This document shows positions 1,882-17,519 of a stretch of DNA of 35,100 nt, one piece after another. Each line of letters opens with the position of its first letter. Within the stretch, counting starts at the first letter, position 1. Under the pieces are notes generated by a model. It made no database searches and had not been told where the DNA came from. It saw only the letters and a program-made list of their open reading frames with translations. The stretch comes from Methanoregula sp. (GTDB lineage Archaea; Halobacteriota; Methanomicrobia; Methanomicrobiales; Methanospirillaceae). The stretch lies in NCBI RefSeq assembly GCF_003170075.1, contig NZ_PMZU01000022.1, positions 1-35,100 of the forward strand, written 5' to 3'. A program made the translations under genes and the position numbers.

Positions 1882-2391
1882 TCACAATACCGCCCGTTTC
1901 CGGAGAATATCAGACAATACCTGCAGGTTATGGTTCAGGAATTCCCGGTCCTCATCTGACAGCTCTTTCTCCGGATGGGTGCGGTCCGGCTGGATCCCGA
2001 GCAGCGTGACCCTCGTCCCGATCTCCAGTTCAACATAGTCCATGACAACCGAAAGCGGGAGGGCGTGCGTCGAGAAGAGGCTTGCCTGGATGCGCTCAGG
2101 GTCGATGACCGCGATCGTGCCGGGCCGTGCTCCCATATCGGCTGCGTCGAGAAAAAGGGTGTGGTCCGGCTGGAACCGGCGGAGGGGGCCGGTGATACTC
2201 TCCGGGACCGTGCCGGCAAAGAATACGCCGACATCCGGTAAGTGCACCTGATCAATCCTTTTCGCCGCGACCATGCCAAGCCGGTCAAAGGGCTGGAGCT
2301 CGTCGCCAATACCAACGACCGCAATCCGGCGGGCATCCTTAAGCCTGATCCGCAGAGATGCCCCGGGATCCTCGCCGGAAAACCGGTTCAC
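1882..2391 (-). CDS. hycI: [NiFe]-hydrogenase maturation protease (HycI/HybD family)
   Basis: This 169-residue protein has the layout of the nickel-sensing endopeptidases that remove the C-terminal tail of hydrogenase large subunits. Near residue 25 the VVGIGDELQPFDRLG segment matches the family's N-terminal VGN...DDG region, although the usual second aspartate is replaced. LFLDAADMGARPGTI carries the middle acidic residue, and STHALPLS carries the histidine thought to bind nickel. It starts at GTG 2391 in a GTGA overlap with the mbhN stop, so it is translationally coupled as the last gene of the operon. Its likely substrate is the upstream MbhL, which has a 33-residue tail; the EchE in this window has none. 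Family is secure, substrate is inferred. Confidence 0.85.
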   Translation of the reverse strand: MNRFSGEDPGASLRIRLKDARRIAVVGIGDELQPFDRLGMVAAKRIDQVHLPDVGVFFAGTVPESITGPLRRFQPDHTLFLDAADMGARPGTIAVIDPERIQASLFSTHALPLSVVMDYVELEIGTRVTLLGIQPDRTHPEKELSDEDREFLNHNLQVLSDILRKRAVL

Positions 2392-2747
2392 GTAACCACG
2401 ATCTCCCCGTCAGTGCCCGAACTCGAGAGCTCATTTTTCAGGAATATCGCCCCGGTCGGGCAGTGCCGCTCACAGAGGCCGCAGCGGATGCACTTGTATA
2501 GTTTTACCTGCGGCCGTTTCTTCCGGTTAAGGGTCTTCCCGTTGAACTCAACCTCCCGTGGGCCGTCGATCATGGTGATGGCCCGGGCCGGGCAGACAAG
2601 GGAACACTTCGAACACCCGATACACTTCTCATCGGTAATGGCAACCCTCCCGCGGAATGCTCCCGGGATAGGGACTTTTTCCTTCGGGTAGAGGATCGTG
2701 ATCGGCCGTGACAGGAGGTTCTCAAACATCTCCCGCAGGACACTCAT
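2388..2747 (-). CDS. mbhN: Mbh-type hydrogenase polyferredoxin subunit, 2x[4Fe-4S]
   Basis: A 119-residue iron-sulfur subunit homologous to NuoI/MbhN/EchF. Two binding motifs are complete: CIGCSKCSLVCP and CIRCGLCERHCP, each followed by the usual Cys-Pro. The N-terminal RPITILYP segment is typical of the amphipathic helix that docks this subunit on the membrane arm. It passes electrons between soluble ferredoxin and the small subunit MbhJ. The ATG at 2747 overlaps the mbhM stop (ATGA). An in-frame extension upstream to 3077 exists but lies inside mbhM, so it is rejected. The N symbol is by position and homology to the Pyrococcus Mbh naming. Confidence 0.9.
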   Translation of the reverse strand: MSVLREMFENLLSRPITILYPKEKVPIPGAFRGRVAITDEKCIGCSKCSLVCPARAITMIDGPREVEFNGKTLNRKKRPQVKLYKCIRCGLCERHCPTGAIFLKNELSSSGTDGEIVVT

Positions 2748-3718
2748 GCATACACCCAGAGATAGTTCATGACGAGGACGATCCCGACCTGCACGATAGA
2801 AGCGCTGGCGATATATTTCCAGCCGATATCGTTCAGCTGGTCGATCCGGATACGGCCGGTTGCTACCTTTATCGAGGACAGTATAAGGAGCACGGCAAGA
2901 GTCTTTGCAAGAAACAGGAAAAAGCCGACAACCACCGCAAGCCAGGCCGGTGTGACTGCCCACGGCATCAGGGGGCCGCCCAAAAAGACGGCCGCTATAA
3001 GTGCGCTCCCGACGACAAACGACACATCGACTGTCAGGTCCATAATGGCGAGCCTGCGCCCGGTCAACTCTGTCCACGGCCCGGCAACGATCTCGGTCTC
3101 CGCCTCGGGAATATCAAACGGTGTCCTCTCCAGTTTTGCCTGGAGCCCGATCAAGGCAACAATAAAACCGATCGGCTGGAGGAAGACAAACCACATGTTT
3201 TTCTGCTGCCAGATAACGATCTCCGAGATCGACCAGGTACCTGCCATCAGGGCCGGGGTCATAAGAGCAAGGAAGAACGGCACCTCGTAAATAAAGAGCT
3301 GGGTGACTGAACGGATCCCCCCGATGGCAGAGAAGATGTTCCGGGAGAGCCAGCCCAAGAGGAAGAGCACGATGGTCGGGAGCGACATGAGATAGAGGAC
3401 GACAACGAGGTCGCCCTGGAATGCGAGCGGGCTGTTCCCGACGATGGGGATGTAGAGATATGCGGTCATGACCGCGGCGAGGGCGACAAGGGGTGCTGCA
3501 TCGAATATCACCCTGTCCACACCGGCCGGATCGATGACCTCCTTCCCCAGCATCTTGATGAAATCCGCAAACGGCTGGAAAAACGGCGGGCCTACCCGCT
3601 GCTGCATCCTGGCCGCGATCTTACGGTCCAGGAACGCGAGAAACAGGGCATACAGAAAAAGGAATAAAAAGCCCGGGAAGATGAGAATATAGATTAACCC
3701 GGACACAGGGTCAGTCAT
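2744..3718 (-). CDS. mbhM: Mbh-type hydrogenase membrane subunit, NuoH family
   Basis: This 324-residue, multi-helix protein is the NuoH/complex I ND1-type anchor that joins the hydrogenase arm to the membrane. The first loop KIAARMQQRVGPPFFQPF and the ERTPFDIPEAETEIVAGP motif are signatures of this family. The acidic residues in that loop line the cavity that couples electron transfer to ion movement. The gene overlaps mbhL upstream (stop and start share bases at 3715-3718) and mbhN downstream. It is more NuoH-like than the second copy, EchB, where the same loop reads RKSPFDLSTSHHAH. The assignment is secure. Confidence 0.92.
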   Translation of the reverse strand: MTDPVSGLIYILIFPGFLFLFLYALFLAFLDRKIAARMQQRVGPPFFQPFADFIKMLGKEVIDPAGVDRVIFDAAPLVALAAVMTAYLYIPIVGNSPLAFQGDLVVVLYLMSLPTIVLFLLGWLSRNIFSAIGGIRSVTQLFIYEVPFFLALMTPALMAGTWSISEIVIWQQKNMWFVFLQPIGFIVALIGLQAKLERTPFDIPEAETEIVAGPWTELTGRRLAIMDLTVDVSFVVGSALIAAVFLGGPLMPWAVTPAWLAVVVGFFLFLAKTLAVLLILSSIKVATGRIRIDQLNDIGWKYIASASIVQVGIVLVMNYLWVYA

Positions 3719-4896
3719 GGTCGCACCAGCCCCTGATCGCGGGAACGGTTGCGCCGTATCAACTCATCAAAGCTCATAACTCCTGTTTTTTTAGTCTGGC
3801 TGTCCAGAAGCGTGATCCTTGATGTGCATGACAGGCATGGATCGATTGCGGCAACAATCACGGGCAAGTCAGCAAGGTTCTGGTTGACAAGGCAGATGGC
3901 AACCGAGGTCCAGTTTGCCAAGGTCGGCGTGCGGATATCGACACGTTCCACCTTGTCAGTCCCGTTTGTCCGGATAAAATGCGCCAGTTCTCCCCGCGGC
4001 GCTTCGTACCGGGAGAGGATCTCCCCGGTGGGCGCATTTCTTGGTGCGGTAACACGGATCGGTCCTTCCGGGAGATTTTCAAGGCAGTAGCGGACAATCT
4101 TGAGGCTCTCCCAGAGTTCCCCGATGCGGACACGCGTCCTGCCATAGACATCCCCGTTTGTATCGGTCACCACGTTCCAGGGCACGTCTGCATAGGCAAG
4201 GTACGGGTCATCCTTCCGGGTATCATAATCCACACCGCTTGCGCGTGCCGTCGGCCCGACGGTCCCGTACCTGAGAGCCTCCTCTTTTGAGAGCTTGCCG
4301 ACACCCCGGAACCGGATGAGCATGGTCTCCTCGCTGTTCACCATGTCCACGTATTTTTTTATCCGTTCTTCGAGATTTGGCAGTCGCTCCAGGGCGGCAG
4401 TCACCTGGGCAGGCGTCAGGTCACGGCGGACGCCCCCGACTTCGTTCATACCATAGTGGACCCGGTTCCCGCTCATCTCCTCAACCGTATCTTGGACCGC
4501 CTCCCGGTCGCGCCATGTCCACATGAAGAGGGTATTGAACCCGATGACATGTGCAGCCACACCCAGCCAGAGAAGGTGGCTGTGCATCCGCTCCAGTTCC
4601 GCGATAATGGTGCGGATGTACTGGGCACGCGGTGGGACCTCGAGCTGCATGATCTCCTCGATTCCCTTGGCAAATGCCGTTGAGTGGGCGTGGGAACAGA
4701 TCCCGCAGACCCGCTCCAGGAGGGGAAGGACCCGGATAAAGTCGCGCTGTTCGGCGGCCTTCTCGACTCCCCGGTGGTTATACGAAAGGTCAAGTTCGAG
4801 GCGGACAATCTTTTCACCTTCGATAACAACCTTGAAATTCACCGGTTCCTTGAGGGCGGGATGATGCGGGCCGATGGAGACAACAACCTCGGGCAT
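3715..4896 (-). CDS. mbhL: [NiFe]-hydrogenase large subunit, Mbh-type (group 4)
   Basis: The 393-residue catalytic subunit carries both nickel-binding pairs: RVCGICS (C64, C67) and DPCLSCTSR (C354, C357). It is therefore a true hydrogenase and not a complex I NuoD homologue, which lacks these cysteines. After R360 there is a 33-residue C-terminal tail, which in this family is removed by a HycI-type protease once nickel is inserted; such a protease closes the same operon. The expected reaction is reversible H2 production or uptake coupled to ferredoxin and to ion translocation. The ATG at 4896 follows the mbhK stop by two bases. Very secure as group 4 [NiFe]; the Mbh subtype comes from the operon order. 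Confidence 0.95.
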   Translation of the reverse strand: MPEVVVSIGPHHPALKEPVNFKVVIEGEKIVRLELDLSYNHRGVEKAAEQRDFIRVLPLLERVCGICSHAHSTAFAKGIEEIMQLEVPPRAQYIRTIIAELERMHSHLLWLGVAAHVIGFNTLFMWTWRDREAVQDTVEEMSGNRVHYGMNEVGGVRRDLTPAQVTAALERLPNLEERIKKYVDMVNSEETMLIRFRGVGKLSKEEALRYGTVGPTARASGVDYDTRKDDPYLAYADVPWNVVTDTNGDVYGRTRVRIGELWESLKIVRYCLENLPEGPIRVTAPRNAPTGEILSRYEAPRGELAHFIRTNGTDKVERVDIRTPTLANWTSVAICLVNQNLADLPVIVAAIDPCLSCTSRITLLDSQTKKTGVMSFDELIRRNRSRDQGLVRP

Positions 4897-4898
4897 TT

Positions 4899-5378
4899 TC
4901 AGGTCCTCTCCACTTTTATGCCCCCGTAGAAGGTATCCGGGCCAGGCTTCCAGTCCTTCCGCAGGGGAAATTCGTTCGCCGGCCAGTCTTCGTTTAACAT
5001 GATCCGGTTCAGGTTGGTATTGCCGGTAAAGGTGATGCCGAAAAGGTCGTGGATCTGTCGTTCGTAGATCGCCGCAGGTGGGAGGATATCAGAGGTTGTC
5101 GGGATCGCCGGCTGATCCCGCGTGAGTTCAATGGCGATAGAAAGAACCATGCGGTGAGGGCCGGTCAGGTGGTAGATCAGTTCAAGCGTCCTTGTGTTAT
5201 CCACCGCACTGATGGTGATCAGGCGGTCGCACCCGAGCATGGCCTGGGCCGTCTTTATCGTATCATGGACCTTGTCCGGTGTCGTTGTTATCCTGATACG
5301 GTTTTTCCGGACCAGTTCCGAATTCCCGAATTCCTTCATCTTCCCTGCGACCATGTCCAGCGTCAGCGGGCCGGTCAT
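4899..5378 (-). CDS. mbhK: Mbh-type hydrogenase NuoC-like subunit
   Basis: The 159-residue soluble subunit belongs to the NuoC/30-kDa family, which packs on the large subunit. The signature is YERQIHDLFGITFTGN in the C-terminal half, followed by LNEDWPANEFPLRKDW, the usual W-P-x-FPLRKD ending of this family. It binds no cofactor and is structural. The ATG at 5378 overlaps the mbhJ stop (ATGA), consistent with coupled translation of J, K and L. It is longer than the second copy EchD (123 residues), which lacks the FPLRKD end. Confidence 0.9.
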   Translation of the reverse strand: MTGPLTLDMVAGKMKEFGNSELVRKNRIRITTTPDKVHDTIKTAQAMLGCDRLITISAVDNTRTLELIYHLTGPHRMVLSIAIELTRDQPAIPTTSDILPPAAIYERQIHDLFGITFTGNTNLNRIMLNEDWPANEFPLRKDWKPGPDTFYGGIKVERT

Positions 5379-5908
5379 GGTACCACCTTACAGATGTTCG
5401 TGTCAGTACCGGTAACCGGGACGGCCTTTTTCTGCCGCCACTCCTTCCCGCCATGGGCCGCATCCTCGTGGACGAGGTTCAGGCATGTCACGACGCCATT
5501 GATGATTTCGTCCGGGCGAGGCGGGCAGCCGGCGACATAGACATCAATGGGGATTACTCTGTCAACACAGTCCATCATGTGGTACAGGCCGTGGAATACC
5601 CCCCCTGACGCACCGCAGGCACCCATGGCGATCACATATTTCGGCTCGGGTATCTGTTCCCAGACACGGCGCAGGCGGGACGCCTGTTTCAGCGTGACGT
5701 GGCCGGTGACTATCAGGATATCGGCATGCCGGGGCGAGCCCTTGACAAGCATCCCGAAACGCTCGATATCAAACCGGGGCATCAGACATGCGATAATCTC
5801 GATATCACAGGCATTGCAGGCACCGCTGTTAAAGATCGTAATCCAGGGTGATTTCATCCGCGCCCAGTTCACGAGACGCTGGCTCATGCCGGCTGCCGGG
5901 ACTGCCAT
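5375..5908 (-). CDS. mbhJ: [NiFe]-hydrogenase small subunit, NuoB family
   Basis: This 177-residue subunit holds the single [4Fe-4S] cluster next to the NiFe site. Its four ligands are visible: C31 and C34 in GACNACDIE, C98 in GACGASGG and C128 in AGCPPRP. The pattern is that of NuoB/PSST and of group 4 small subunits. The start at 5908 is favoured by a strong ribosome binding site, GGAGGTGAT at about 5917-5925. This is the first strong site inside this half of the operon, where most other genes start by overlap. A 43-codon frame separates it from mbhI. The assignment is secure. Confidence 0.93.
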   Translation of the reverse strand: MAVPAAGMSQRLVNWARMKSPWITIFNSGACNACDIEIIACLMPRFDIERFGMLVKGSPRHADILIVTGHVTLKQASRLRRVWEQIPEPKYVIAMGACGASGGVFHGLYHMMDCVDRVIPIDVYVAGCPPRPDEIINGVVTCLNLVHEDAAHGGKEWRQKKAVPVTGTDTNICKVVP

Positions 5909-5910
5909 GG

Positions 5911-6042
5911 TTAATCATCACCTCCGTGGGAAAATATAAACCCATGGATCGGGACATTTCCGCCGGCATTGTGCCGGAAACCACAAACGTCCTCTGGCTG
6001 CCCCCCCGGGACACCGGTATACAGACGAATACATGTTCTCAT
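5911..6042 (-). CDS. 43-codon frame between mbhI and mbhJ, unknown
   Basis: An ATG at 6042 overlaps the mbhI stop (ATGA), as at most junctions of this operon, and opens a 43-codon frame that ends in TAA at 5911-5913, two bases before the mbhJ start. The predicted peptide is not hydrophobic, has two cysteines, and is rich in glycine and histidine near its end (FSHGGDD). I recognise no family. It may be a real small subunit or chaperone-type peptide. It may equally be a chance frame in a 130-base spacer whose last part is the mbhJ ribosome binding site. Confidence 0.3.
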   Translation of the reverse strand: MRTCIRLYTGVPGGQPEDVCGFRHNAGGNVPIHGFIFSHGGDD

Positions 6043-6368
6043 TGCTCCCACCTCAGGACCGTTACCGCAACCGCCATGATGACCAGGTACCCGAGAGGCC
6101 CCCAGAGGGGTGCATCGGGAGGGGAGGTTGCAAGAACGAGTGCTGCCACGTGCACGACCGTGAAGAACAGGGCCACGTAGAAGAACTGGTACCCGGGCTG
6201 CCAGACCTGCGCCACCGCAACTTCGCCGCCGACATAGGGCATGGTCTTGTTGACGGACGGTATAGATGCCGGTGCAACCGTGCGGGACCACCAGTAAATC
6301 AGGCACCCGATCACAAGAGCATCCACCATGATGGTAATCGGTGACGCCATGAGATCCCACAGCAGCAT
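6039..6368 (-). CDS. mbhI: small membrane subunit, MbhI/NuoA-like
   Basis: The 109-residue protein has about three hydrophobic helices. The PYVGGE segment followed by FFYVALFFTVVHVAALVLA resembles the YECG loop and second helix of the NuoA/ND3 family, and its place just ahead of the small subunit matches MbhI in Pyrococcus. This subunit links the antiporter-like part to the hydrogenase module. Its ATG directly follows the mbhH stop (TGA-ATG, no gap). The identification relies on position as much as sequence. Confidence 0.7.
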   Translation of the reverse strand: MLLWDLMASPITIMVDALVIGCLIYWWSRTVAPASIPSVNKTMPYVGGEVAVAQVWQPGYQFFYVALFFTVVHVAALVLATSPPDAPLWGPLGYLVIMAVAVTVLRWEQ

Positions 6369-7829
6369 TCATGCCACCCCCCACGTGAAGATCTGCCCGG
6401 CTGCATGCGAGATCCAGGTAAACGACTCCGGGAAAAGCCCGAAATAGACCGTGACAATCGCGAGAAATACCACGGCGGTAACCACCGGGAAGGGAATTGT
6501 TATCCGGTGCACGGGGCACCGGTCGCCTTCCGTCCCATAGAACATGAGCGTCGATATGATCGGCACATAATACCCAAGGGAAAGAGCGCTGTTCAGGACA
6601 AGGACCAAGGCAAGAACGACGCCGCTCATCATCGAGGTCGCCATGCCGGCCTGTACAAGGAGCAACTTCCCGAGAAAACCGGCAGTGAAGGGAACACCGC
6701 TCAGTCCGAAAATGAAGATATCAAAGGAGATGCCGAGAAGGGAATGTTTTGCACCCAGCCCCCTCATCTGTGCAGTCTCGTAGGATCCTGCATCCCGAGC
6801 AAACGTATCTGTGGCGATGAACGCTCCCGCCTTCATCATCGTATACGCGATGGCATAATAGAGGCCGGCAGTGAACCCCAGGGGCAGGTTATAGACCATG
6901 CCGATTCCGAACCCGAGGAGGATATACCCCGTCTGGGCCACGCTTGAGTATGCAAGGACATACCGGAGATCCCGCTGGTTGAGTGCAAGAAGATTTCCCG
7001 CTGTCATGGTCAGGACTGCAAAAAAAATGACGAGGATGCCAATGGTCTTGGGAATACCGCCGGCAGGCAGGGCAGAGAGGGTAAGAAACAATGCAATCAG
7101 GACACCTATCTTTGTCGGGCCCACCATGATCGCGGTAACCCCCACAGGTGCCCGGGCATAGGCATCCGGAAGCCAGGTGTGCAGTGGGACGATCGCCAGT
7201 TTCACCCCATACCCGAGCAGGATCAGGATGGCTGCAAAGATTACAAGCGACGGGTCTGCACCGGCAAGGGCTTTGGGGAGTTCTGACAGGTTCAGGGTAT
7301 GCCCGATGAGGTACAGGATTGCCACCCCGAAGAGGGCGGTCAGCGTCCCCACAACTCCCTGCAGCATGTATTTCATGGCCGACGAAAGCGCTGCCGGATC
7401 TTCCTTGTGACGGTAGGCGCACAGGGCATATACCGGGATGGCCGACAGCTCGACCATGACAAAAATAGTGAAGAGGTCATTTGCAAACCCTATTGCCATC
7501 GCACCGGCCAGTGCAAACAGGAAAAGCGGATAATACAGGTGGACCGGCCCTTTCGGATCAAGGCTCCCTTCAGAAGCCCATGCTGACACAGCACCAATCC
7601 CCGTGACAAGAAGTCCCCCGGTAATGCCGGTAAACGAGAGAGGAGAGAGTGTGGCGTGCCGGGCAATCACGGAAAGCAAAATAAAGAAGGTTCCAAGGAG
7701 TATCAGAGCGGTCAGCGTCCCGCTCCAGTGACGGAGGTTTTGCGGAAGGATCTTCGTGATGAAATAGATCGCTATGCCACACATTGCGACAACAAGGGGG
7801 GTGGCAGCCGCAATATCAGCGGGTATCAC
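6369..7829 (-). CDS. mbhH: antiporter-like subunit, MbhH/MrpD/NuoN family
   Basis: A 486-residue protein with about 14 helices, of the proton-translocating antiporter-like family. The key residues of a working ion channel are present: a glutamate in VMVELSAIPVYA (TM5), a lysine in GYGVKLAIVPLHTWLPDAY (TM7), a lysine in GPTKIGVL (TM8), and a lysine in AYTMMKAGAF (TM12). It starts at GTG 7829 in a GTGA overlap with the fused subunit upstream. With the two modules of that fusion it makes three antiporter-like units in one hydrogenase, more than the single MbhH of Pyrococcus Mbh. The ion moved, H+ or Na+, cannot be read from the sequence. Confidence 0.88.
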   Translation of the reverse strand: MIPADIAAATPLVVAMCGIAIYFITKILPQNLRHWSGTLTALILLGTFFILLSVIARHATLSPLSFTGITGGLLVTGIGAVSAWASEGSLDPKGPVHLYYPLFLFALAGAMAIGFANDLFTIFVMVELSAIPVYALCAYRHKEDPAALSSAMKYMLQGVVGTLTALFGVAILYLIGHTLNLSELPKALAGADPSLVIFAAILILLGYGVKLAIVPLHTWLPDAYARAPVGVTAIMVGPTKIGVLIALFLTLSALPAGGIPKTIGILVIFFAVLTMTAGNLLALNQRDLRYVLAYSSVAQTGYILLGFGIGMVYNLPLGFTAGLYYAIAYTMMKAGAFIATDTFARDAGSYETAQMRGLGAKHSLLGISFDIFIFGLSGVPFTAGFLGKLLLVQAGMATSMMSGVVLALVLVLNSALSLGYYVPIISTLMFYGTEGDRCPVHRITIPFPVVTAVVFLAIVTVYFGLFPESFTWISHAAGQIFTWGVA

Positions 7830-10800
7830 AAGCCCACCCCCAGGATGACCACCGCGACGAGGGCGACAAGGACACTCCCGAACATGGCGATATTCCAGTT
7901 TGCATCACGGTTTTCCATACCCATGGCGACCTTCCCGGCAGTAAAGAGCGTGAGGGCTGCAGCGACTGCACAGCGGTAGACACGCACGAAAACCTCCTGG
8001 AGACCGCCGGCAAAGGCGGTAATGCCATGAGCCAGTCCCAGATAGGCCACGTCAATATCCCGGATGTGCGTTTCATGAGGCAGGAGGATCTTCCGCCCGA
8101 CCGCAAAGAAGAAGAGCACGGCAGCGCCAAGGACCAGGAGGGCACTGGCCAGATGCTCCGGGTCATATGCCAGGTACGTGGTCGGGTAGGGCAGGAAACC
8201 GTAGAGGATCTGCGGGAATATCCCGATGATGATGCATAATGCTGCAGCACCGAGCATGCCGGCCTGCATGAGGAGTGGCGGGTCCGAGGCCTCGGTGCTG
8301 CCCGGGCGTAAAAATGCGAAATATCCCAGCTTGAGGAAGGATAAGCATGTCCCGAAGGACGCGATCTCAAGGAGTACCCAGAGCCAGAAACTGGTGTTTT
8401 GCGCGGCCATGAGCACCATCCCCTTGGAAACGTAGCCGTTGAAGAGCGGCACTCCTGAGATCGCGAATGCCGCGATCCAGAATGCAAACGCCGTGACCGG
8501 CATCTTTTTCTGGAGCCCGCCGATGCGGCTGAGCAGGTTCTCACCGGTCTTCCATATAATCACGCCAACCACCATGAACAGGAGCGTCTTGTAAAGGATA
8601 TTGTTGACGAGGTGGGCCATGCCACCGTCAAGGCCGAGCTGCCCGATCCCGTTTGCTGCTCCCAGCCATCCCAGGATCCCAATCCCGGCGACCATGTAGC
8701 CAACCTGGGAGATGATATGGTACGAGAGGAGACGGCGCATATCATTCTGGAAGACCGCAAACGTTACGCCATACACGGCCATGAGCGCCCCCATAAATGC
8801 AATATATTCTGTCCCCGGCTGGGCCCGTGCAAGGAGATACACCGCTGCTTTCGTAGTGTAGACGCACAAAAAGACACTTGCGACGAAGTTGGCCCGGGGG
8901 TAGGCATCCGGAAGCCAGGTGTGCAAGGGGATAAACGCCATATTCACGCCGATCCCAAGGACGATCATCACGGTTGCCCACAGCTGGTAGGTCGCATTGG
9001 GAATGCCGGCAAGAGGCCCGACTATGGGGGAACCCGCCCCTAAAAAGAGCAGGGCGATCCCGGCAGAAAGGAGGGCCCCCCCGAGACCATGGAAGAGGAG
9101 GTAGCGGTATCCCGCCCGGATCGCTTCCCCGCCTTCCTGCCAGATGAGGAACGTCGAGGTAATCGCCATGAGCTCCCAGAAGATCAAGAGGGTGATCCAG
9201 TCCCCTGCAAAGACCACACCAAGCGAGGCGCCGGCATAGAGCAGGGCAAAAAGGTGGAGACGGGGTGCTGCAACGGCTGCGGCATAGAGGATTATAAGGA
9301 ACGTGATGATCGCAAAGATGACCCCCGTCAGGTACGAGAGGCTGTCAACTCTCAGAAGGATCAGGGTATACCCGGCAAAGGGGAGATCCCATTGCATCAC
9401 GCCAAGAGCAGCCGTGCCGGCAAAGGCCCCTCCGGGAAGGAGGAGGACATCGGCAAGAGCGAGCCCGCCGAGAAGAATGAGCCCGGCCTGCCGTGCACGC
9501 CCCTTTAGTGCCAGCACGAGCGGTGCACCGATAAGGAAGATCAGGAATGGCGGGATCGCGGTACCAGGTACCAGGGTTCCTGATGCGAGTACCGCAGTAT
9601 GGGTCACGCTCGCCGCAACCTGGGCACAGAGAGCGAACGGGCTAAGAGGATACGCAGTCCAGAGGCCAAGGACCAGTGCTCCTGCTGCGGTCACCAGTAT
9701 CGGGGCACGGAGTGTCATGCGGACCTTCGGTATTTTACCTTCGGACTGCCCGAAAAATGCCCGCATGATGATGGGCAGGAAATACGCAAGGTTCAGGACG
9801 CTCGCTGAAATGAGGAGAAGGAGAATCCACCACATACTGATATTTCCTGCACCAATTCCCAGCGAGAGATAGTACTTGGCGATGAACCCTGCCATGGGGG
9901 GCAGCCCTACCATGCTCAGGGTTGCAAGGGTGAATGCACCAAACTCCCATGGCATTTTCCGGCCGATACCATCGAGCTCAGAGATCTTTTTCTTCCCGGT
10001 CTCCACGGCCACTGCACCGGCAACAAAAAACATGGTCAGCTTGCCGAACGCATGGGCACAGAATGCATAGGTCGCCCCGATCACCGCGGCAGCTCTCCAA
10101 GCATCAGAAACCCCGGATATCCCGGGCGGCACCAGCACGGCAGCGCCCAGGATCATGTAACTGAGCTGGCTGATCGTGGAGTACGCGAGCCTGAGTTTGA
10201 AGTCATCCTGCAGCAGCGCAAGGAGAGAGCCGACGATAATCGTGATGACTGCTACTGCAATGACGATGTTCTGAAGCCCCAGCCCCGCCATCAAGCCGGG
10301 CCCGTACAGGTACAGCATAACGCGGAAGAGCCCGAAAACACCGGCATTCACAACGGCAACGGCATGCAGGAGCCCACTGACGGGTGTCGGGGCGATCATG
10401 GCACTGGGCAGCCACCCGTGAACCGGGACAAGCGCTGCCTTGACGGCAAAACCCGCCAGGAGGAGGAGAAAGGCAAGCCGGGCAAAGTCGGGGGCTATGG
10501 CTGCGATACCGGGATTGCCACCGGCAACAAAGTCAAGGGTGTTTCCCATAGCGAGCAGGATCATCATCCCCGCGACGATCGCGACTCCCCCGGCCTGGGT
10601 GTAAAAGAGATACTTCCTCCCTGCTGCAAGCGCTTCCCGCGTCTCGGTATGGACAACAAGAGGCCATGCGGCAATGGCAAGGATCTCGTAGAACACGAAC
10701 ATTGAGAAGAGGTTGGAGGAGAGTGCAATCCCCATGACCGACCCGATGGTGATGGCAAAGCTGGCATAATATCGCGTTTGCGCATGTTCCCTGAGCCCAC

Positions 10801-11113
10801 GCATATAGCCGATACTGTACACGGTCGTAATGATCCAGAGCAGTGAGGCGAGGAATGCGAACATGAGGCCGAGGGCATCGGCAGCGAACTGGAGGGAGAG
10901 GCCGGGAAGTATCTGGAGCGAAGGAGTGGAGATAGCTTGTGCTACAAATGCCGAGGGGAGGGCGAGGATGCAGAAGAGGAACGTCAGGACCGCAGATGCA
11001 AGCGACGCGGCTTCGCGGGCATCCGGGCGGTTGTTCAGAAGTATCACAAAACCGGTCCCGATAAACGGCATCGCAACGATAAGAACAAGCATCCACGGCT
11101 GGACCGCCATCAC
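7826..11113 (-). CDS. fused double antiporter-like subunit (two NuoL/M/N modules)
   Basis: This 1095-residue protein contains two complete antiporter-like modules in tandem. Module 1 (about 1-500) shows YEILAIAAW (TM5 Glu), GFAVKAALVPVHGWLPSAM (TM7 Lys), APTPVSGLLHAV and AHAFGKLTMFF (TM12 Lys). Module 2 (about 510-1010) shows FWELMAITSTF and PLHTWLPDAYP, then TTKAAVYLL and LYKTLLFMV. At the TM7 lysine position of module 2, however, the residue is asparagine (GIGVNMAFIP, N724). About 80 residues with further helices follow. The start is GTG 11113, overlapping the mbhG stop, or ATG 11110 just after. No stop or frameshift separates the modules. The likely role is ion pumping driven by the hydrogenase. 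Confidence 0.88.
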   Translation of the reverse strand: MMAVQPWMLVLIVAMPFIGTGFVILLNNRPDAREAASLASAVLTFLFCILALPSAFVAQAISTPSLQILPGLSLQFAADALGLMFAFLASLLWIITTVYSIGYMRGLREHAQTRYYASFAITIGSVMGIALSSNLFSMFVFYEILAIAAWPLVVHTETREALAAGRKYLFYTQAGGVAIVAGMMILLAMGNTLDFVAGGNPGIAAIAPDFARLAFLLLLAGFAVKAALVPVHGWLPSAMIAPTPVSGLLHAVAVVNAGVFGLFRVMLYLYGPGLMAGLGLQNIVIAVAVITIIVGSLLALLQDDFKLRLAYSTISQLSYMILGAAVLVPPGISGVSDAWRAAAVIGATYAFCAHAFGKLTMFFVAGAVAVETGKKKISELDGIGRKMPWEFGAFTLATLSMVGLPPMAGFIAKYYLSLGIGAGNISMWWILLLLISASVLNLAYFLPIIMRAFFGQSEGKIPKVRMTLRAPILVTAAGALVLGLWTAYPLSPFALCAQVAASVTHTAVLASGTLVPGTAIPPFLIFLIGAPLVLALKGRARQAGLILLGGLALADVLLLPGGAFAGTAALGVMQWDLPFAGYTLILLRVDSLSYLTGVIFAIITFLIILYAAAVAAPRLHLFALLYAGASLGVVFAGDWITLLIFWELMAITSTFLIWQEGGEAIRAGYRYLLFHGLGGALLSAGIALLFLGAGSPIVGPLAGIPNATYQLWATVMIVLGIGVNMAFIPLHTWLPDAYPRANFVASVFLCVYTTKAAVYLLARAQPGTEYIAFMGALMAVYGVTFAVFQNDMRRLLSYHIISQVGYMVAGIGILGWLGAANGIGQLGLDGGMAHLVNNILYKTLLFMVVGVIIWKTGENLLSRIGGLQKKMPVTAFAFWIAAFAISGVPLFNGYVSKGMVLMAAQNTSFWLWVLLEIASFGTCLSFLKLGYFAFLRPGSTEASDPPLLMQAGMLGAAALCIIIGIFPQILYGFLPYPTTYLAYDPEHLASALLVLGAAVLFFFAVGRKILLPHETHIRDIDVAYLGLAHGITAFAGGLQEVFVRVYRCAVAAALTLFTAGKVAMGMENRDANWNIAMFGSVLVALVAVVILGVGL

Positions 11114-11433
11114 AGGTCACCACCCCGTGAAAGCCGGGAAATGGCAGCAATATCGAAAGTCTTGTACACCCTTCGCAGCAGGATGACCAGTGCCAGCGCG
11201 ACACCTGCAACGACCGCCTCGATGGCGATCAGGGTGATGACCACTGCCTGGGACACCCCCACGTCACCGGCAAGATATCCCCCCAGAACAAAGAGAAGGC
11301 TGACCCCTTTTCCGAGAAATTCGAGCCCCATGACCATTTTGATCAGATTACAGCGGGCAATCAGACTTGCAAGCCCGATAGCAAAGAGTGCACCGGCGAC
11401 AAGCATAATCACCGGCGCAAGAGCGGGGATCAT
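11110..11433 (-). CDS. mbhG: small membrane subunit, MbhG/MrpC/NuoK family
   Basis: A 107-residue, three-helix protein. The middle helix LIKMVMGLEFLGKGVSLLFVL and the third helix with VVITLIAIEAVVAGVALAL carry the two conserved buried glutamates of the NuoK/MrpC family, which take part in ion translocation. The start at 11433 is chosen over an upstream in-frame ATG at 11541 because it overlaps the preceding stop (ATGA) and begins exactly at the first hydrophobic helix. The longer form would add 36 non-hydrophobic residues that lie inside mbhE. Confidence 0.85.
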   Translation of the reverse strand: MIPALAPVIMLVAGALFAIGLASLIARCNLIKMVMGLEFLGKGVSLLFVLGGYLAGDVGVSQAVVITLIAIEAVVAGVALALVILLRRVYKTFDIAAISRLSRGGDL

Positions 11434-11672
11434 GGCTGCGTCCTCCGGGAATAATTCAGGCCAAGGAGCAGGAGGATTGACATGACACCGGCAAGCATGA
11501 TGAACCCCTGGAGGATCACCTCGTACGTGCGCCCTTTCCACAGCGCTTCACCTGCCGCTACCACCAGAGGGGGGGTGACCGGCCAGGAAGTAAAATGCGG
11601 GATCACGATCACAATAAAAAGGAGAAGAAAAACCACGCCCATGAACAACGCACAGGCATTTTTTGCATTCAT
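11430..11672 (-). CDS. mbhE: small membrane subunit, MbhE/MrpB-like
   Basis: An 80-residue protein with two hydrophobic helices, one at the N-terminus and one near the end, joined by a short polar loop that includes GRTYEVILQGF. The layout resembles the MbhE/MrpB N-terminal family, in which the loop ahead of the second helix carries a conserved acidic residue. It sits between mbhD and mbhG as in Pyrococcus Mbh and overlaps both neighbours by four bases. Sequence identity in this family is weak, so position is the main support. Confidence 0.65.
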   Translation of the reverse strand: MNAKNACALFMGVVFLLLFIVIVIPHFTSWPVTPPLVVAAGEALWKGRTYEVILQGFIMLAGVMSILLLLGLNYSRRTQP

Positions 11673-11932
11673 GTGCGCACCTTTTCCTCTTCGCCACCCG
11701 CAAGGACAAGGGCCACGAGCAAGAGAACTGCCACAAGGCCTGCGCCAACCGTAAGCTCAAGGGCACCGGCGTACGCGGATGACAGGACGAAAAACAAGGT
11801 TGCAAGACCTGTACTTGAGATCGCGAATGCAATAACCGCCCGGATGAGATTTTTCTGCAACACCGCGATCAGTGCCATGGCAACCGTCGCCACGCCGATT
11901 GCAAGCACGATAATAACGTCAGGTCCTGGCAT
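11669..11932 (-). CDS. mbhD: small membrane subunit, MbhD (DUF4040-like); first gene of Mbh operon
   Basis: An 87-residue protein with three predicted helices. The segment QKNLIRAVIAFAISSTGLA followed by LELTVGAGLVAVLLL matches the DUF4040/MbhD family, also found as a domain of MrpA: a basic loop, then a helix with an essential acidic residue before GAGL. It is the first gene of the operon; upstream is a 479-base spacer. No gene resembling MbhA, MbhB, MbhC or MbhF (MrpE, F and G type) precedes it, so the complex lacks that part of the Pyrococcus sodium antiporter module. Confidence 0.78.
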   Translation of the reverse strand: MPGPDVIIVLAIGVATVAMALIAVLQKNLIRAVIAFAISSTGLATLFFVLSSAYAGALELTVGAGLVAVLLLVALVLAGGEEEKVRT

Positions 11933-12411: not shown

Positions 12412-12795
12412 TTATTGGTTAGGTTCATCCTTTTTTTCCGGCTTGGCCGGTTTTACGTACGTGATCGCGAAGACCTCGACGGATTTTTCCACAGCCGGCC
12501 CCGTATACTGGGTATCCATAAAGAGGCACTTCGACGGGCAGGTGTCAACACAGGAGCTGCACACAACGCAGCGGAACCGGTCGATCTGCCAGGTTTTCGC
12601 TTCCTTGTTCAGCAGGATCGCCTGCGACGGGCATTTCTTCACGCAGATACTGCAGGAAATGCACTTGCTACCGTCATACGCTACGTGCCCCCGCGTGAGA
12701 CCCGTCTTTTTCGCGGGCTGGTATGGGTACAGGATCGTGGCTGGCCGGCTCATGACGGTCTTTAAGGCCGTCTTTGTCATCTCGAAAAAGCCCAT
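12412..12795 (-). CDS. echF: Ech hydrogenase ferredoxin-like subunit, 2x[4Fe-4S]
   Basis: A 127-residue NuoI-family iron-sulfur subunit. It has CISCSICVKKCP and CVVCSSCVDTCP, each complete for a [4Fe-4S] cluster, and the N-terminal RPATILYP segment found also in MbhN. It carries electrons from ferredoxin to EchC. It is the last gene of the six-gene operon and starts six bases after the echE stop. The two copies in this window (MbhN and EchF) differ clearly outside the cysteine motifs, so they are not a recent duplication. Confidence 0.92.
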   Translation of the reverse strand: MGFFEMTKTALKTVMSRPATILYPYQPAKKTGLTRGHVAYDGSKCISCSICVKKCPSQAILLNKEAKTWQIDRFRCVVCSSCVDTCPSKCLFMDTQYTGPAVEKSVEVFAITYVKPAKPEKKDEPNQ

Positions 12796-12801
12796 CGCAG
12801 A

Positions 12802-13881
12802 TCACCGCTCCGTACAGCTGATACAGGGATCGATCGACAACACGATCACCGGGACATCGGCAAGCTCACAACCCTGTAGCATTTTGATAAGCGACGGGAT
12901 GTTGGACAGGGTCGGCGTCCGGATCCGGGACCGGACCAGGAACTTGGTCCCGTTACCCTTGATGTAATGGACCAGCTCGCCACGGGGCTGCTCGGCACGG
13001 CAGAAGAACTCGCCATTGGGAGCACCGGTCACCTTGACCTCGATCGGACCATCCGGGATCTTCCGGATCGCCTGCTGGATCAGGTCGATGGAACTGAAGA
13101 GTTCCTTGCACCGCACGAGGCAGCGGGAATAGGCGTCCCCGCAGCTGTCCGTGACCATCGAAAAGTTGAGTTTCCCGTAGGCAGCATACCCGGTCTTGCG
13201 CAGGTCGATCGCGACGCCGCTCCCCCTGCCGGTCGGCCCGACCGCACCGAGGTGATAGGCATCCTCGCGGGAAAGAACCCCGACATTTCGTGTCCGGTGC
13301 CGGACAGTATCGTCGTGGAGGAAGACATTGGTCAGGTCCTCGATCTCCTTTCTGATACTGTCAAGGTTGCTGCTCATTTCGGCGAGTTTCTCGTTCGCGA
13401 TATCTCGCCGGACCCCGCCGATCTTGCAGGTGCCCTGGATTACCCTGCCACCGGTTGTCTGTTCGAACACGTCAAGGATCCGCTCCCGTATCCTCCACGC
13501 GTTCATGAACAGGTTTTCAAAACCGAAAGAATCGGCAAAGAGCCCCAGCCAGAGGAGGTGGGAGTGCAGCCTTGAGTACTCGGACCATATCGTCCGGAGG
13601 TAATCGGCACGCTCCGGCACCTCGATATTCATGATCTGTTCGACACCGACACAGTAGGTCATGCCGTGGATGAAACTGCAGATCCCGCAGGTGCGCTCGG
13701 CAACATAGACGTATTCGGTGAACTCCCGTTTCTCCACGAGTTTCTCGAATCCCCGGTGGATGTACCCGATTGAGGGGATGACATCGACCACCCTCTCGTC
13801 CTCGAGCACGAGGTCGAGGTGGATCGGTTCGGGAAGGACCGGATGCTGGGGCCCGAAGGGGACGATGATCTGCTTTGTCAT
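12802..13881 (-). CDS. echE: Ech hydrogenase large subunit
   Basis: The 359-residue catalytic subunit has both NiFe pairs: RTCGICS (C65, C68) and DPCISCTER (C353, C356). The protein ends exactly at R359, so there is no C-terminal tail to remove; the same is described for Ech and CooH large subunits and contrasts with MbhL in this window. The reaction is ferredoxin-linked H2 turnover coupled to an ion gradient, which in methanogens supplies reduced ferredoxin for CO2 reduction or biosynthesis. It overlaps echD by four bases. Secure. Confidence 0.95.
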   Translation of the reverse strand: MTKQIIVPFGPQHPVLPEPIHLDLVLEDERVVDVIPSIGYIHRGFEKLVEKREFTEYVYVAERTCGICSFIHGMTYCVGVEQIMNIEVPERADYLRTIWSEYSRLHSHLLWLGLFADSFGFENLFMNAWRIRERILDVFEQTTGGRVIQGTCKIGGVRRDIANEKLAEMSSNLDSIRKEIEDLTNVFLHDDTVRHRTRNVGVLSREDAYHLGAVGPTGRGSGVAIDLRKTGYAAYGKLNFSMVTDSCGDAYSRCLVRCKELFSSIDLIQQAIRKIPDGPIEVKVTGAPNGEFFCRAEQPRGELVHYIKGNGTKFLVRSRIRTPTLSNIPSLIKMLQGCELADVPVIVLSIDPCISCTER

Positions 13882-14249
13882 GGTTTCTCCCCTTTCACAA
13901 TAGTGACCCCGAACGGGTATTTCACCGATGTCCTGATGAAGGTGCCCTTGAAATCGATATTGATCCCCTTTACCTGAATACCGAAGAGATCATGCATCTC
14001 GTTCTCATACACGAATGCACCCCAGTACATACCGGTGATGCTCGGGATTTCCGTCTCGGCAGTAACGGTGATCCGCAGGTTTTTGAGGACATAGTCCTTG
14101 TCAAAGGAGTAATTGATCTCAAAGGCGTTGTCGCCTACCTTCGTGCATCCGATCTGGGCGAGCCGGTAGCCCTCATTCCTGCACTGTTCCACACTCCCGA
14201 TGAGTTTCCCGACATCGATGGGGATAATAGACTGCTCCTGTGTTATCAT
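13878..14249 (-). CDS. echD: Ech hydrogenase NuoC-like subunit
   Basis: A 123-residue protein of the NuoC family in its short Ech form. The signature YENEMHDLFGIQVKG is near residue 80, and the C-terminal W-P-FPLRKD end of the long form is absent, as is normal for EchD. It is a soluble structural subunit bound to EchE. ATGA overlap with echC. Confidence 0.88.
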   Translation of the reverse strand: MITQEQSIIPIDVGKLIGSVEQCRNEGYRLAQIGCTKVGDNAFEINYSFDKDYVLKNLRITVTAETEIPSITGMYWGAFVYENEMHDLFGIQVKGINIDFKGTFIRTSVKYPFGVTIVKGEKP

Positions 14250-14713
14250 ACGGAATCACCTGCCGGTTTTCTTGTGGCAGCCGGTCTGTCGTTCATCGCC
14301 TGCCTCTTTGCTTCCAGGATCCCGAGGGCCTTGACCACACCGTCGATAATTGCCTCGGGCCGGGCCGCACACCCGGGAACGAAGACGTCCACGGGGATCA
14401 CCTTGTCAATACCGCCCATCACGTTATAGCACTCCCGGAAGATGCCGCCGGACGCGGCACAGATGCCGATCGCCACCACGACTTTCGGGTCCGCCATCTG
14501 GTCGTATGTATTTTTGAGGATCTCCCGGTTCTGCTCGTTGACGCTTCCCGTGACGAGGAAGACATCGGCATGCTTCGGGTTGCCGGTATTGACAATCCCG
14601 AACCGTTCCACGTCATAGACAGGGGTCAGTGCCGCGAGCACTTCGATGTCGCACCCGTTGCAGGACGATGCGTCATAGTGGATGATCCAGGGGGATTTTG
14701 CCAGATAGGTCAT
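14246..14713 (-). CDS. echC: Ech hydrogenase small subunit
   Basis: The 155-residue NuoB-family subunit binds the proximal [4Fe-4S] cluster through C18 and C21 (SSCNGCDIE), C85 (GICAASGG) and C115 (PGCAARP). The start at 14713 is chosen because it overlaps the echB stop (ATGA) and begins with MTYLAKSPW, the usual first segment. An upstream in-frame start at 14809 would add 32 residues with no family match. The C-terminal tail after GILEAKR is basic and variable. Confidence 0.93.
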   Translation of the reverse strand: MTYLAKSPWIIHYDASSCNGCDIEVLAALTPVYDVERFGIVNTGNPKHADVFLVTGSVNEQNREILKNTYDQMADPKVVVAIGICAASGGIFRECYNVMGGIDKVIPVDVFVPGCAARPEAIIDGVVKALGILEAKRQAMNDRPAATRKPAGDSV

Positions 14714-15591
14714 GGCACGACCACCATCCTCAGGTAATACAATACCCCCAGGTTGATGACGCCGAGGGTTCCCGCAACGAGCCAGGCACTCCGGAGCGTC
14801 ATCTGCCACTTCACCCGCGATGTCGTGTTGTCGATGAGGATCTCAAGGAAATAGGCGATGATTATGGCCGCGATGGCGATGAAGGGGTTCCATGCAAAGA
14901 ACAGGTAGACAACCCCCAGCAGGAAGACGTACTCGTACCAGTGGGCGATCTCGATCCTTCCAAGGTTCGGGCCGGCAAAATCGGTCGTGACCCCCTTGAC
15001 AATCTCCTGGTGCGCATGATGGGACGTGGACAGATCGAATGGCGACTTCCTCAGTTTGATGGTCAGGACGATCAGGTAACCGATGAAGACACCCGGGAGG
15101 TACAGGATAATCGGCGTGGTGGACTGCACAATTGACCCCACATAGAAGCTTTTGGTCACCATGTACATCCCCACGGCCGTGAGGATGATCATCGGCTCAT
15201 ACGCGATGATCTGGATCAGTTCACGTTCTGCCCCGATATGGCTGTACGGGGAGAACGCTGCGTACGCCCCCAGCACGAGAAAGATATGCGAGAGCGTGAA
15301 CGCGAAGATCACAAGGAGCATATCCCCTCCGGAGAAGAAGAGGGCTCCCGCAACGGCCATGAAGACGAGGTAGCTCAGGGCATAGAAGTTCTGGGTCGTC
15401 GTGACGACAAGGTTCTCCTTTTCGAAGAACTTCCCGACATCGTAGAAGGGCTGGAGGAGGGGCGGCCCGACCCGCCCCTGCATCCGGGCAGTCACCTTAC
15501 GGTCGATCCCGGCAATAAGCCCCCCCAGCACCGGCGCGAGGAGCAGGTAGATGATCGCTTTGACGATCGCTTCGTACGGTTCCGGGATCAC
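14710..15591 (-). CDS. echB: Ech hydrogenase membrane subunit, NuoH family
   Basis: A 293-residue multi-helix anchor of the NuoH family. The loop KVTARMQGRVGPPLLQPFYD is the family signature; the second loop RKSPFDLSTSHHAHQEIVKG is the Ech variant. The start is placed at GTG 15591, which overlaps the echA stop (GTGA) and yields an N-terminus running straight into the first helix. An ATG at 15642 would add 17 residues that lie inside echA. With EchA it forms the membrane arm of the complex. Confidence 0.92.
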   Translation of the reverse strand: MIPEPYEAIVKAIIYLLLAPVLGGLIAGIDRKVTARMQGRVGPPLLQPFYDVGKFFEKENLVVTTTQNFYALSYLVFMAVAGALFFSGGDMLLVIFAFTLSHIFLVLGAYAAFSPYSHIGAERELIQIIAYEPMIILTAVGMYMVTKSFYVGSIVQSTTPIILYLPGVFIGYLIVLTIKLRKSPFDLSTSHHAHQEIVKGVTTDFAGPNLGRIEIAHWYEYVFLLGVVYLFFAWNPFIAIAAIIIAYFLEILIDNTTSRVKWQMTLRSAWLVAGTLGVINLGVLYYLRMVVVP

Positions 15592-17519
15592 AGGATCACC
15601 CCTACGATCATGATTAAGGCAATGAGGATAAGGCCCCAGCACACGAGCGTGCCGGTCATGAAGAGTTTTTCCTCACCGAAGTAGTTTTTCAGATAATAAT
15701 TCGAGAGCACAAGGTCGTGGGAGATCCCCATTGAACCTGTATACTTCATGCCGCCTTCCGTGGTCATCCCGCCCATATACGGCGGCGCCATCCGCGGCGC
15801 CTTACCGGTGAACAGCATGGAGAACGGCATGATGATCAAGAGGCCGAGCATCAGGAGCATGATCGTGATATTGGCCTGCGCGAGCCGCGTCGTCTCCCCG
15901 TAAATCTGCATCACGAACGGCTCGATGAGTGCCGAGGAGATCAGCGGGAAGATCAAGGCAACTATGACGACGAGCCCGGTGAGTATGTACAGGACTGCCC
16001 ATTTCTCCGGCCTGATCCCGGTCTCCAGGTTCTCCTGATGCCGCATCACCGAGATGATCTTCCCCATCCACTTGCACCAGAAGAAGAGGCTGGCCGAACC
16101 GCCGAATGCAAGGATGACGATGAAGACGAGGCCGAAGGGGGCGGTGATGAACGCCTCTATCGCTGCCCATTTGGAGATGATCATACCAAACGGTGCAAGG
16201 AACATACCGGCCATGCCGATGAACATCATAACGGCAAGCTTCGGCATGCGCTCGATGAGTCCGCCCATATCCTCGATATCCCGGCTGCCGATACGGTTTT
16301 CCACCGTGCCGACGCAGAGGAACAGGAGCGATTTCGCGACCGCATGGAAGATCATCAGGAGGATCGCTACCCACATGAGGTTGTAGGTTCCCACACCGGC
16401 ACAGGCGACGATCAGCCCGAGGTTCCCGATGGTGGAATAGGCAAGCACCCTTTTTGCATTGCTCTGTGATATTGCCATGCAGGAGGCCAGGAGGAACGTT
16501 ATCCCGCCGACGAGGGCAATCATGAGGCCCTCGGTAGTGCCGGTCAGGACAGGGGCGAACCGTAGGATAATATACACCCCGGCCTTTACCATCGTGCTGG
16601 AATGCAGCAGGGCCGAAACCGGCGTGGGGGCAACCATGGCACCCAGGAGCCAGGACGAGAACGGCAGCTGGGCTGCTTTTGTGAGACCGGCAAAACTGAT
16701 CAGGACTGCGGGGATGATGGCAAACACGTATCCCGAATGGATCAGGGTATTGAGCTCCAGCAGTCTCCCGGACGGGTCCATTGCCGCAATATAGATCAGG
16801 GCAGCGGCAAACGCGACCCCGCCCAGCAGGTTCATGGAGAGAGCGAGGAAGGCATTGTTGGTCGCCTCTTCGGTCTGGGAATACCCGATCAGGACAAACG
16901 AACAGAAGGTCGTGATCTCCCAGAAGAAGAGGATCCAGACAAGGTTGTTGGAAAAGACCAGTCCAAACATGGCGGAGAGGAAGGCAAACAGCAGGAAAAA
17001 GAACATCCTGCGACGATCCTTAATCTCCGGATGGTGCTGGTGATAGGTCTCCATGTAGCCCAGCGAATAGACACAGATCAGGCTCCCGATGATCCCGACA
17101 ATGAGCGCCATGATGATCGAGAGCTGGTCGAAAAAGAGGTTATAGCTCAGTTCGATATGCCGGCCATACGTCATCTCGAACCAGAGGATCAGGGCAGCCT
17201 GAACAAGGACCAGGATCACAGCAGAATATTTCTTGTGCCGGATACCGAGGTAGAGCAGGTAAACCGCAATCACCAGCTCGATGATGATCATGACAAGATC
17301 GACCGGCCCGCTTGAAACGGCGTAGGTGATCAGGCCCTTATCAAACCCGACAGCGAGCAGATAGAGCGATACCGCACCGATGCCCAATGCGGAAATCTTG
17401 ACTATCCAGCTGGTATCAAAGCTTTTTCCTGCAAAAAGCAGGACGATCGCAGATATCAGCGGAAAAAGGATCAGAAACAGCAACAACTGAATGATTTGCA
17501 CCAGATACCCTCCCTCCAT
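15588..17519 (-). CDS. echA: Ech hydrogenase antiporter-like membrane subunit
   Basis: The 643-residue NuoL-family subunit is the only antiporter-like module of this complex. The channel residues are all present: Glu in FFWEITTFCSF, Lys in AGLTKAAQLPFSSWLLGAM, the APTPVSALLHSSTMVKAG segment, and Lys in HAVAKSLLFLC. An ATG at 17519 opens the frame. However, its second to fourth codons form a GGAGGGAGGG ribosome binding site placed well for a GTG at 17501, so the protein may begin six residues later (VQIIQLL). It is the first gene of the operon and diverges from hppA across 440 bases. Confidence 0.93.
   Translation of the reverse strand: MEGGYLVQIIQLLLFLILFPLISAIVLLFAGKSFDTSWIVKISALGIGAVSLYLLAVGFDKGLITYAVSSGPVDLVMIIIELVIAVYLLYLGIRHKKYSAVILVLVQAALILWFEMTYGRHIELSYNLFFDQLSIIMALIVGIIGSLICVYSLGYMETYHQHHPEIKDRRRMFFFLLFAFLSAMFGLVFSNNLVWILFFWEITTFCSFVLIGYSQTEEATNNAFLALSMNLLGGVAFAAALIYIAAMDPSGRLLELNTLIHSGYVFAIIPAVLISFAGLTKAAQLPFSSWLLGAMVAPTPVSALLHSSTMVKAGVYIILRFAPVLTGTTEGLMIALVGGITFLLASCMAISQSNAKRVLAYSTIGNLGLIVACAGVGTYNLMWVAILLMIFHAVAKSLLFLCVGTVENRIGSRDIEDMGGLIERMPKLAVMMFIGMAGMFLAPFGMIISKWAAIEAFITAPFGLVFIVILAFGGSASLFFWCKWMGKIISVMRHQENLETGIRPEKWAVLYILTGLVVIVALIFPLISSALIEPFVMQIYGETTRLAQANITIMLLMLGLLIIMPFSMLFTGKAPRMAPPYMGGMTTEGGMKYTGSMGISHDLVLSNYYLKNYFGEEKLFMTGTLVCWGLILIALIMIVGVIL

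Follow-up and report, generated by a model that had tools for sequence, protein, structure and literature searches.

What becomes of an antiporter-like subunit that lacks the lysine of transmembrane helix 7 (TM7)? The pair formed by a TM5 glutamate and this lysine has been called absolutely conserved, and current mechanisms treat it as essential for both Mrp and complex I (PMC7419157, PMC9802314). The question is raised by a gene of Methanoregula sp. in a stretch of 35,100 nucleotides (contig NZ_PMZU01000022.1, hereafter the window), in which two such subunits are joined into one protein and the second carries an asparagine at the TM7 place. We asked whether the fusion is real, whether the asparagine is a peculiarity of this protein, and what may have taken over from the lysine.

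The fused gene and its hydrogenase cluster

The open reading frame runs on the minus strand from 11113 to 7826, begins with GTG and contains no internal stop. In a Pfam search Proton_antipo_M was matched twice along the 1095-residue protein, which bears out an earlier, preliminary description of two antiporter modules in one uninterrupted chain. The gene shares a four-base overlap with each adjoining gene (Table 1). In module 1 the corresponding residues are Glu143, the TM7 lysine Lys225, the TM8 residues His250 and Asn256, and Lys413. The TM7 lysine is present in all relatives of this module (M1; 106 separate and 17 fused). The TM8 lysine is lost here, with Asn256 in its place, a substitution that the preliminary description had passed over.

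The order of genes is NuoK/MbhG-like, fusion, MbhH/NuoN-like, ND3-like, MbhJ, K, L, M and N, with the NuoJ/MbhD-like gene and the gene of an 80-residue membrane protein upstream of the fusion. Both the [NiFe] large subunit with its two CxxC motifs and the J-K-L-M-N order are those of an Mbh hydrogenase. A search for MrpE and MrpF, two of the four components of a sodium module (homologues of MrpE, MrpF, MrpG and MrpB), gave no matches in the source genome, while the positive controls matched, and we therefore file the cluster as Mbh-like rather than as Mbh proper. Modules 1 and 2 and MbhH give this hydrogenase three antiporter-like subunits, as had been counted before, and no detected sodium module of the MrpE/MrpF type.

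Immediately upstream of the Mbh-like cluster (2388-11932) is an Ech-type hydrogenase cluster (12412-17519). This adjacency is retained at most fused loci and is inverted in one (L066). Additionally, two other genomes (G002, G184) have a second cluster of the Mbh-like kind, whose MbhH-like subunit has Glu at the places of both the TM8 and the TM12 lysine.

Table 1. Coordinates of the features discussed. Positions are those of the window unless a locus is named.
Feature	Position	Strand	Basis
Fused double antiporter-like subunit M1-M2, 1095 aa	7826..11113	-	ORF; two Proton_antipo_M stretches; intact in 14/199 genomes
Module 1, residues 1-504, MrpA/NuoL-like head	9602..11113	-	Residue positions; M1 relatives
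Junction of modules, residues about 500-515	9569..9616	-	End of M1 relatives, start of M2 relatives; low-confidence zone of full-length model
Module 2, residues 505-1095, NF009310 family, MrpD2-like	7826..9601	-	691-bit match; model pLDDT 90.5
TM5 Glu647	9173..9175	-	Glu in all module 2 relatives but 1 (n=164)
TM6 His675, codon CAT	9089..9091	-	161/164 module 2 relatives; 0/257 other subunits
TM7 Asn724, codon AAT	8942..8944	-	Asn in 154/164 module 2 relatives
TM8 Lys755	8849..8851	-	Lys in 164/164 module 2 relatives
TM12 Lys897	8423..8425	-	Lys in 164/164 module 2 relatives
Lateral amphipathic helix, residues 1021-1063, then last TM helix	7925..8053	-	Helix 517-559 of module 2 model
NuoJ/MbhD-like subunit	11669..11932	-	Oxidored_q3 and MbhD, both weak matches
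80-aa membrane protein, possibly rest of split NuoJ/MbhE	11430..11672	-	Position; conserved in fused loci; no family match
NuoK/MbhG-like subunit	11110..11541	-	Oxidored_q2
MbhH/NuoN-like third antiporter-like subunit, usual Glu and Lys residues	6369..7829	-	Proton_antipo_M; best NCBIfam model NuoN
ND3/NuoA-like small subunit, MbhI place	6039..6368	-	Oxidored_q4, E 0.0024, below cut-off
MbhJ/NuoB-like subunit	5375..5908	-	Oxidored_q6
MbhK/NuoC-like subunit	4899..5378	-	Complex1_30kDa
MbhL, [NiFe] large subunit, two CxxC motifs (CGIC at 64, CLSC at 354)	3715..4896	-	Pfam
MbhM/NuoH-like membrane anchor	2744..3718	-	NADHdh
MbhN/NuoI-like ferredoxin subunit, start estimated	2388..2747	-	Fer4 families
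M1 + M2 complex I-like cluster, Candidatus Marinimicrobia	L165 1568-16608; similar L130, L132, L133, L158, L181, L195
MbhH-like subunit with double Glu	L063 7754-9277 (G002); L068 9963-11486 (G184)

The survey of relatives that had been proposed for the fusion found it intact in 14 of the 199 genomes of the order, at 15 loci with 68-100% identity and no stops, and all fused relatives keep the asparagine. One of the 14 is a one-contig genome (G064); in a further genome (G184) the fusion is cut off at a contig end. Wherever the neighbours of a fused locus are visible, they form the same type of Mbh-like [NiFe]-hydrogenase cluster. Methanoregula and Methanospirillum bins are among the named carriers, and a more distant fusion (60% identity) occurs in a Euryarchaeota bin. 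A 55% identical fused gene was also seen in a bin labelled Planctomycetota (L125 9623-12919), possibly through misbinning or transfer between domains.

In a quick tree search the fused copies of module 1 clustered together, as did those of module 2. The fused halves had as neighbours M1 and M2 proteins from stand-alone clusters of the Mrp type, which may be haloarchaeal. The simplest reading is that the fusion arose once. The source genome is a draft in 77 contigs, and an error of sequencing or assembly might be suspected; its probability is practically negligible, since the same fusion and asparagine recur across these 14 genomes, one of them a single contig, and the asparagine is written with a mixture of AAT and AAC codons.

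Asparagine and histidine in the module 2 family

Against the NCBIfam model NF009310 (MrpD-like, 584 positions, curated cut-off 564 bits), module 2 scored 691 bits, with its best stretch at residues 519-1054. Members of this family, here called M2, formed one clade with the fused copies of module 2 (support 100 in the quick tree search). The family is widespread in many bacteria and archaea. Its genes are mostly separate; in stand-alone clusters of the Mrp type they adjoin M1, frequently together with a third MrpD-like gene, and they also occur in complexes with NuoB/C/D/H-like genes, which are complex I variants.

In complex I-like clusters such as the one of Candidatus Marinimicrobia listed in Table 1, NuoL is apparently replaced by M1 and M2, giving four antiporter-like subunits, an arrangement that recalls the 'green' complex I already described. 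The TM7 residue of M2 in these NuoL-less clusters is Asn, or Cys in the case of L158. A complex I-like cluster in an Actinomycetes bin (L183 891-15360) has five consecutive antiporter-like genes, namely NuoM-like, NuoN-like, an extra M1-like, M1 and M2.

Module 2 has Proton_antipo_M, broken TM7 and TM12 helices, the TM5 glutamate and the TM8 and TM12 lysines of an antiporter-like subunit; Glu647, Lys755 and Lys897 had been recognised correctly in the preliminary description, and the TM11 lysine is retained as well. Of the two modules, only module 1 has the TM7 lysine. In a profile alignment of module 2 relatives with solved structures, Asn724 fell on the TM7 lysine of MrpA, MbhH and MbsH' and on the glutamate of MbsH. 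The lysine is not strictly defining for antiporter-like subunits, because HycC and MbsH lack it. In the Lys-His-Lys chain the TM11 His is replaced by Asn at residue 838 of module 2; His and Asn vary here among fused relatives.

The TM7 residue of 164 distinct M2 sequences was Asn in 154, Lys in 7, and Cys, Ser and His in 1 each; the relatives were gathered with the M2 family as query, and these counts describe the sampled family and are no census. Among 257 other antiporter-like subunits (M1, the third subunit, and the MbhH/NuoN and EchA/NuoL types) it was Lys in 256 and Glu in 1. Counts of distinct sequences leave out duplicates, the NuoM of L158 (13397) and, from the M2 groups, the MbhH of L126. 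Counted with duplicates, the module 2 rows used AAT 66 times and AAC 97 times. Because of this distribution and the use of both codons, the sequences mark the asparagine as a family signature under purifying selection, and neither an error nor a lesion. It had been taken for an oddity of this protein; it is in fact family-wide, and the separate-gene relatives also carry Asn, whereas a lysine in related genomes would have pointed to an error.

Three other accounts of the missing lysine were tried and rejected. An assembly artefact or sequencing error was ruled out by the 14 genomes and the synonymous codons, and decay of module 2 by conservation across relatives. A replacement lysine moved into the channel was not supported by the scan for family-specific residues, which gave no conserved Lys, and no substitute aligned there.

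The residues that the scan found fixed in M2 and rare elsewhere are Trp646, Trp658, Arg670, His675, Asn724, Thr753 and Asp1019. The basic residues gained are thus the TM6 histidine and an arginine substituting for lysine at 670. His675, present in 161 of the 164 M2 sequences and none of the 257 other subunits, accompanies every asparagine, and it is retained where TM7 has Cys, Ser, His or one later Lys. The TM7 lysine and the TM6 histidine occur together in four M2 sequences, some near the base of M2; therefore the histidine does not exclude the lysine. The sequences fit an order in which the histidine came first and the lysine was lost later, an order that is unproven because the tree is unrooted. 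Since M2 is a single clade, common ancestry may account for part of the covariation of Asn and His.

Modelled alone, module 2 gave a pLDDT of 90.5 and a pTM of 0.88. In the model TM7 is discontinuous, with Asn724 where it breaks, and the C-terminal part forms a lateral helix and then the final TM helix; the best matches among solved structures are MrpA and NdhF. By its predicted architecture module 2 may be of the MrpD2 type; the likeness lies in the lateral helix and in a gene order shared with complex I clusters of bacteria, a comparison of architecture and not of sequence. The model of the full-length fusion (pLDDT 61) was too poor for contacts. As a rough estimate, counting residues from the helix ends, Glu647, His675 and Asn724 would lie at a like depth. 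In a hand alignment, which we take as a lead, His675 presumably stands one helical turn before the TM6 position of ND2, ND4 and Nqo12, which would be Gly679 in M2. At that position, TM6 side chains lie between the Glu and the Lys in mammalian ND2 and ND4 (PMC10396290), and one joins the Glu/Lys pair in Nqo12 (PMC11496545).

A proposed re-wiring and its rivals

The gene is a natural fusion of M1 and M2. For M2, which we take to be an old family, these results allow us to propose, with a probability of about 0.6, that the TM5-Glu/TM7-Lys pair has been re-wired to Glu647-His675-Asn724 and not lost. His675 would be the titratable partner of Glu647 and do the job of the TM7 lysine, and the TM7 place, freed from the need for a charge, would usually be occupied by Asn. 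Module 2 would conduct protons via Lys755, Lys842 and Lys897, and the fusion would hold M1 and M2 adjacent at a 1:1 ratio. The Glu-Lys pair of complex I and Mrp is held to act as an electrostatic gate for protons (PMC7419157, PMC11496545), and a histidine could therefore serve. In Paracoccus ND4, removal of the charge of the TM7 lysine (K232Q) impaired catalysis (PMC9802314), which suggests that plain neutralisation is costly without compensation. Against the re-wiring stands MbsH, which lacks the TM7 lysine yet has Gly at the site of the TM6 histidine in the profile alignment. As far as we looked, HycC and MbsH both lose the lysine without this histidine. The broader statement that a large, old archaeal and bacterial branch swapped the supposedly universal TM5-Glu/TM7-Lys switch for a histidine-gated TM5-Glu/TM6-His/TM7-Asn unit is one we make tentatively, at somewhat less than even odds.

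Three other readings accept the asparagine as real. Glu647, His675 and Asn724, all plausible ligands, might form a Na+ or K+ site; with the lysine charge gone from beside the glutamate, the site could hold a metal ion, and M2 would carry or gate sodium and not protons. Antiporter clusters of the Mrp type often contain M2, and the TM5 Glu of MrpD lies on the proposed sodium route in Mrp (PMC7419157, PMC9568556). However, the source genome has no MrpE or MrpF match, M2 occurs in complex I variants too, and the lysines along which a proton channel works are fully retained, so that we consider a cation site unlikely. A shade more doubtful is a harmless neutral variant, in which M2 simply needs no TM7 lysine and the TM6 histidine is unrelated. 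HycC with Leu and MbsH with Glu at the TM7 place are precedents (PMC9474812, PMC7684303), and K-to-A replacements were of little consequence when tested by complementation in Bacillus (PMC4938563), but a neutral site would drift, and the near-fixation of Asn through both of its codons argues otherwise.

The preliminary description had also raised the possibility that module 2 is a structural element, that is, a spacer or an anchor of the lateral helix that moves no ions. The lost TM7 lysine would agree with this, given the impaired complex I of the Paracoccus mutant. Nevertheless, across 164 relatives Glu647, Lys755 and Lys897 scarcely vary and a new histidine is conserved beside them, for which a spacer would have no need. 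We regard this role as distinctly improbable and prefer the re-wired pair.

The hydrogenase itself may couple an ion flow to the reduction of ferredoxin with H2, or run in reverse. More channels per two electrons would help hydrogenotrophic methanogens at low H2.

Significance and comparison with known systems

Because so broad a family shows one consistent alternative, it amounts to a natural experiment on the TM5-Glu/TM7-Lys pair. If the TM6 histidine replaces the TM7 lysine, the job of the pair would be an electrostatic gating that can be moved between helices and is not lysine-specific; one channel in each of the Mrp-type antiporters, the complex I variants and this three-channel hydrogenase would then run on a different coupling chemistry. 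M2 also provides a natural set of TM7 replacements (Asn, Lys, Ser, Cys, His) against an unchanged TM6 His, and the fusion a single chain that holds two adjacent channels.

It is worth stressing what is already known: loss of the TM7 lysine (HycC, MbsH), an MrpD-like pair in complex I, and Mbh-like operons in Methanomicrobiales. In the open-access literature we found no report of an M1-M2 fusion or of the Asn/TM6-His signature. Methanomicrobiales were described with an Mbh-like hydrogenase beside Ech, as here, and we saw no mention there of the fusion or of the TM7 residue (PMC2686161).

The NF009310 (PRK12668) family, annotated as 'Na(+)/H(+) antiporter subunit D', resembles module 2 in having Asn and the TM6 histidine in nearly all members; these are mostly separate genes of about 590 residues, whereas module 2 is joined to M1. 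The MBH and MBS complexes of Pyrococcus furiosus (6CFW, 6U8Y) have the J-K-L-M-N order and the NiFe large subunit with two CxxC motifs in common with our cluster. MBH contains a single antiporter-like subunit and MBS a pair, with a sodium module; our cluster has three, and no detected MrpE or MrpF. MbsH of MBS is likewise without the TM7 lysine, having Glu219 (PMC7684303). In HycC of the Escherichia coli formate hydrogenlyase the lysine is lost and the TM5 glutamate kept, as in module 2 (PMC9474812), but HycC is the sole antiporter-like subunit of its complex and has Leu (Leu208) where module 2 has Asn. A likeness in architecture may also be seen to 'green' complex I, in which a pair of adjoining MrpD-like subunits, MrpD1 and MrpD2, replaces NuoL and the second bears the lateral helix (PMC9040806), as module 2 does in its model. 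There the pair is encoded by two genes and belongs to an enzyme of the NADH/quinone type, whereas the Methanoregula gene is a single fusion and serves a [NiFe] hydrogenase.
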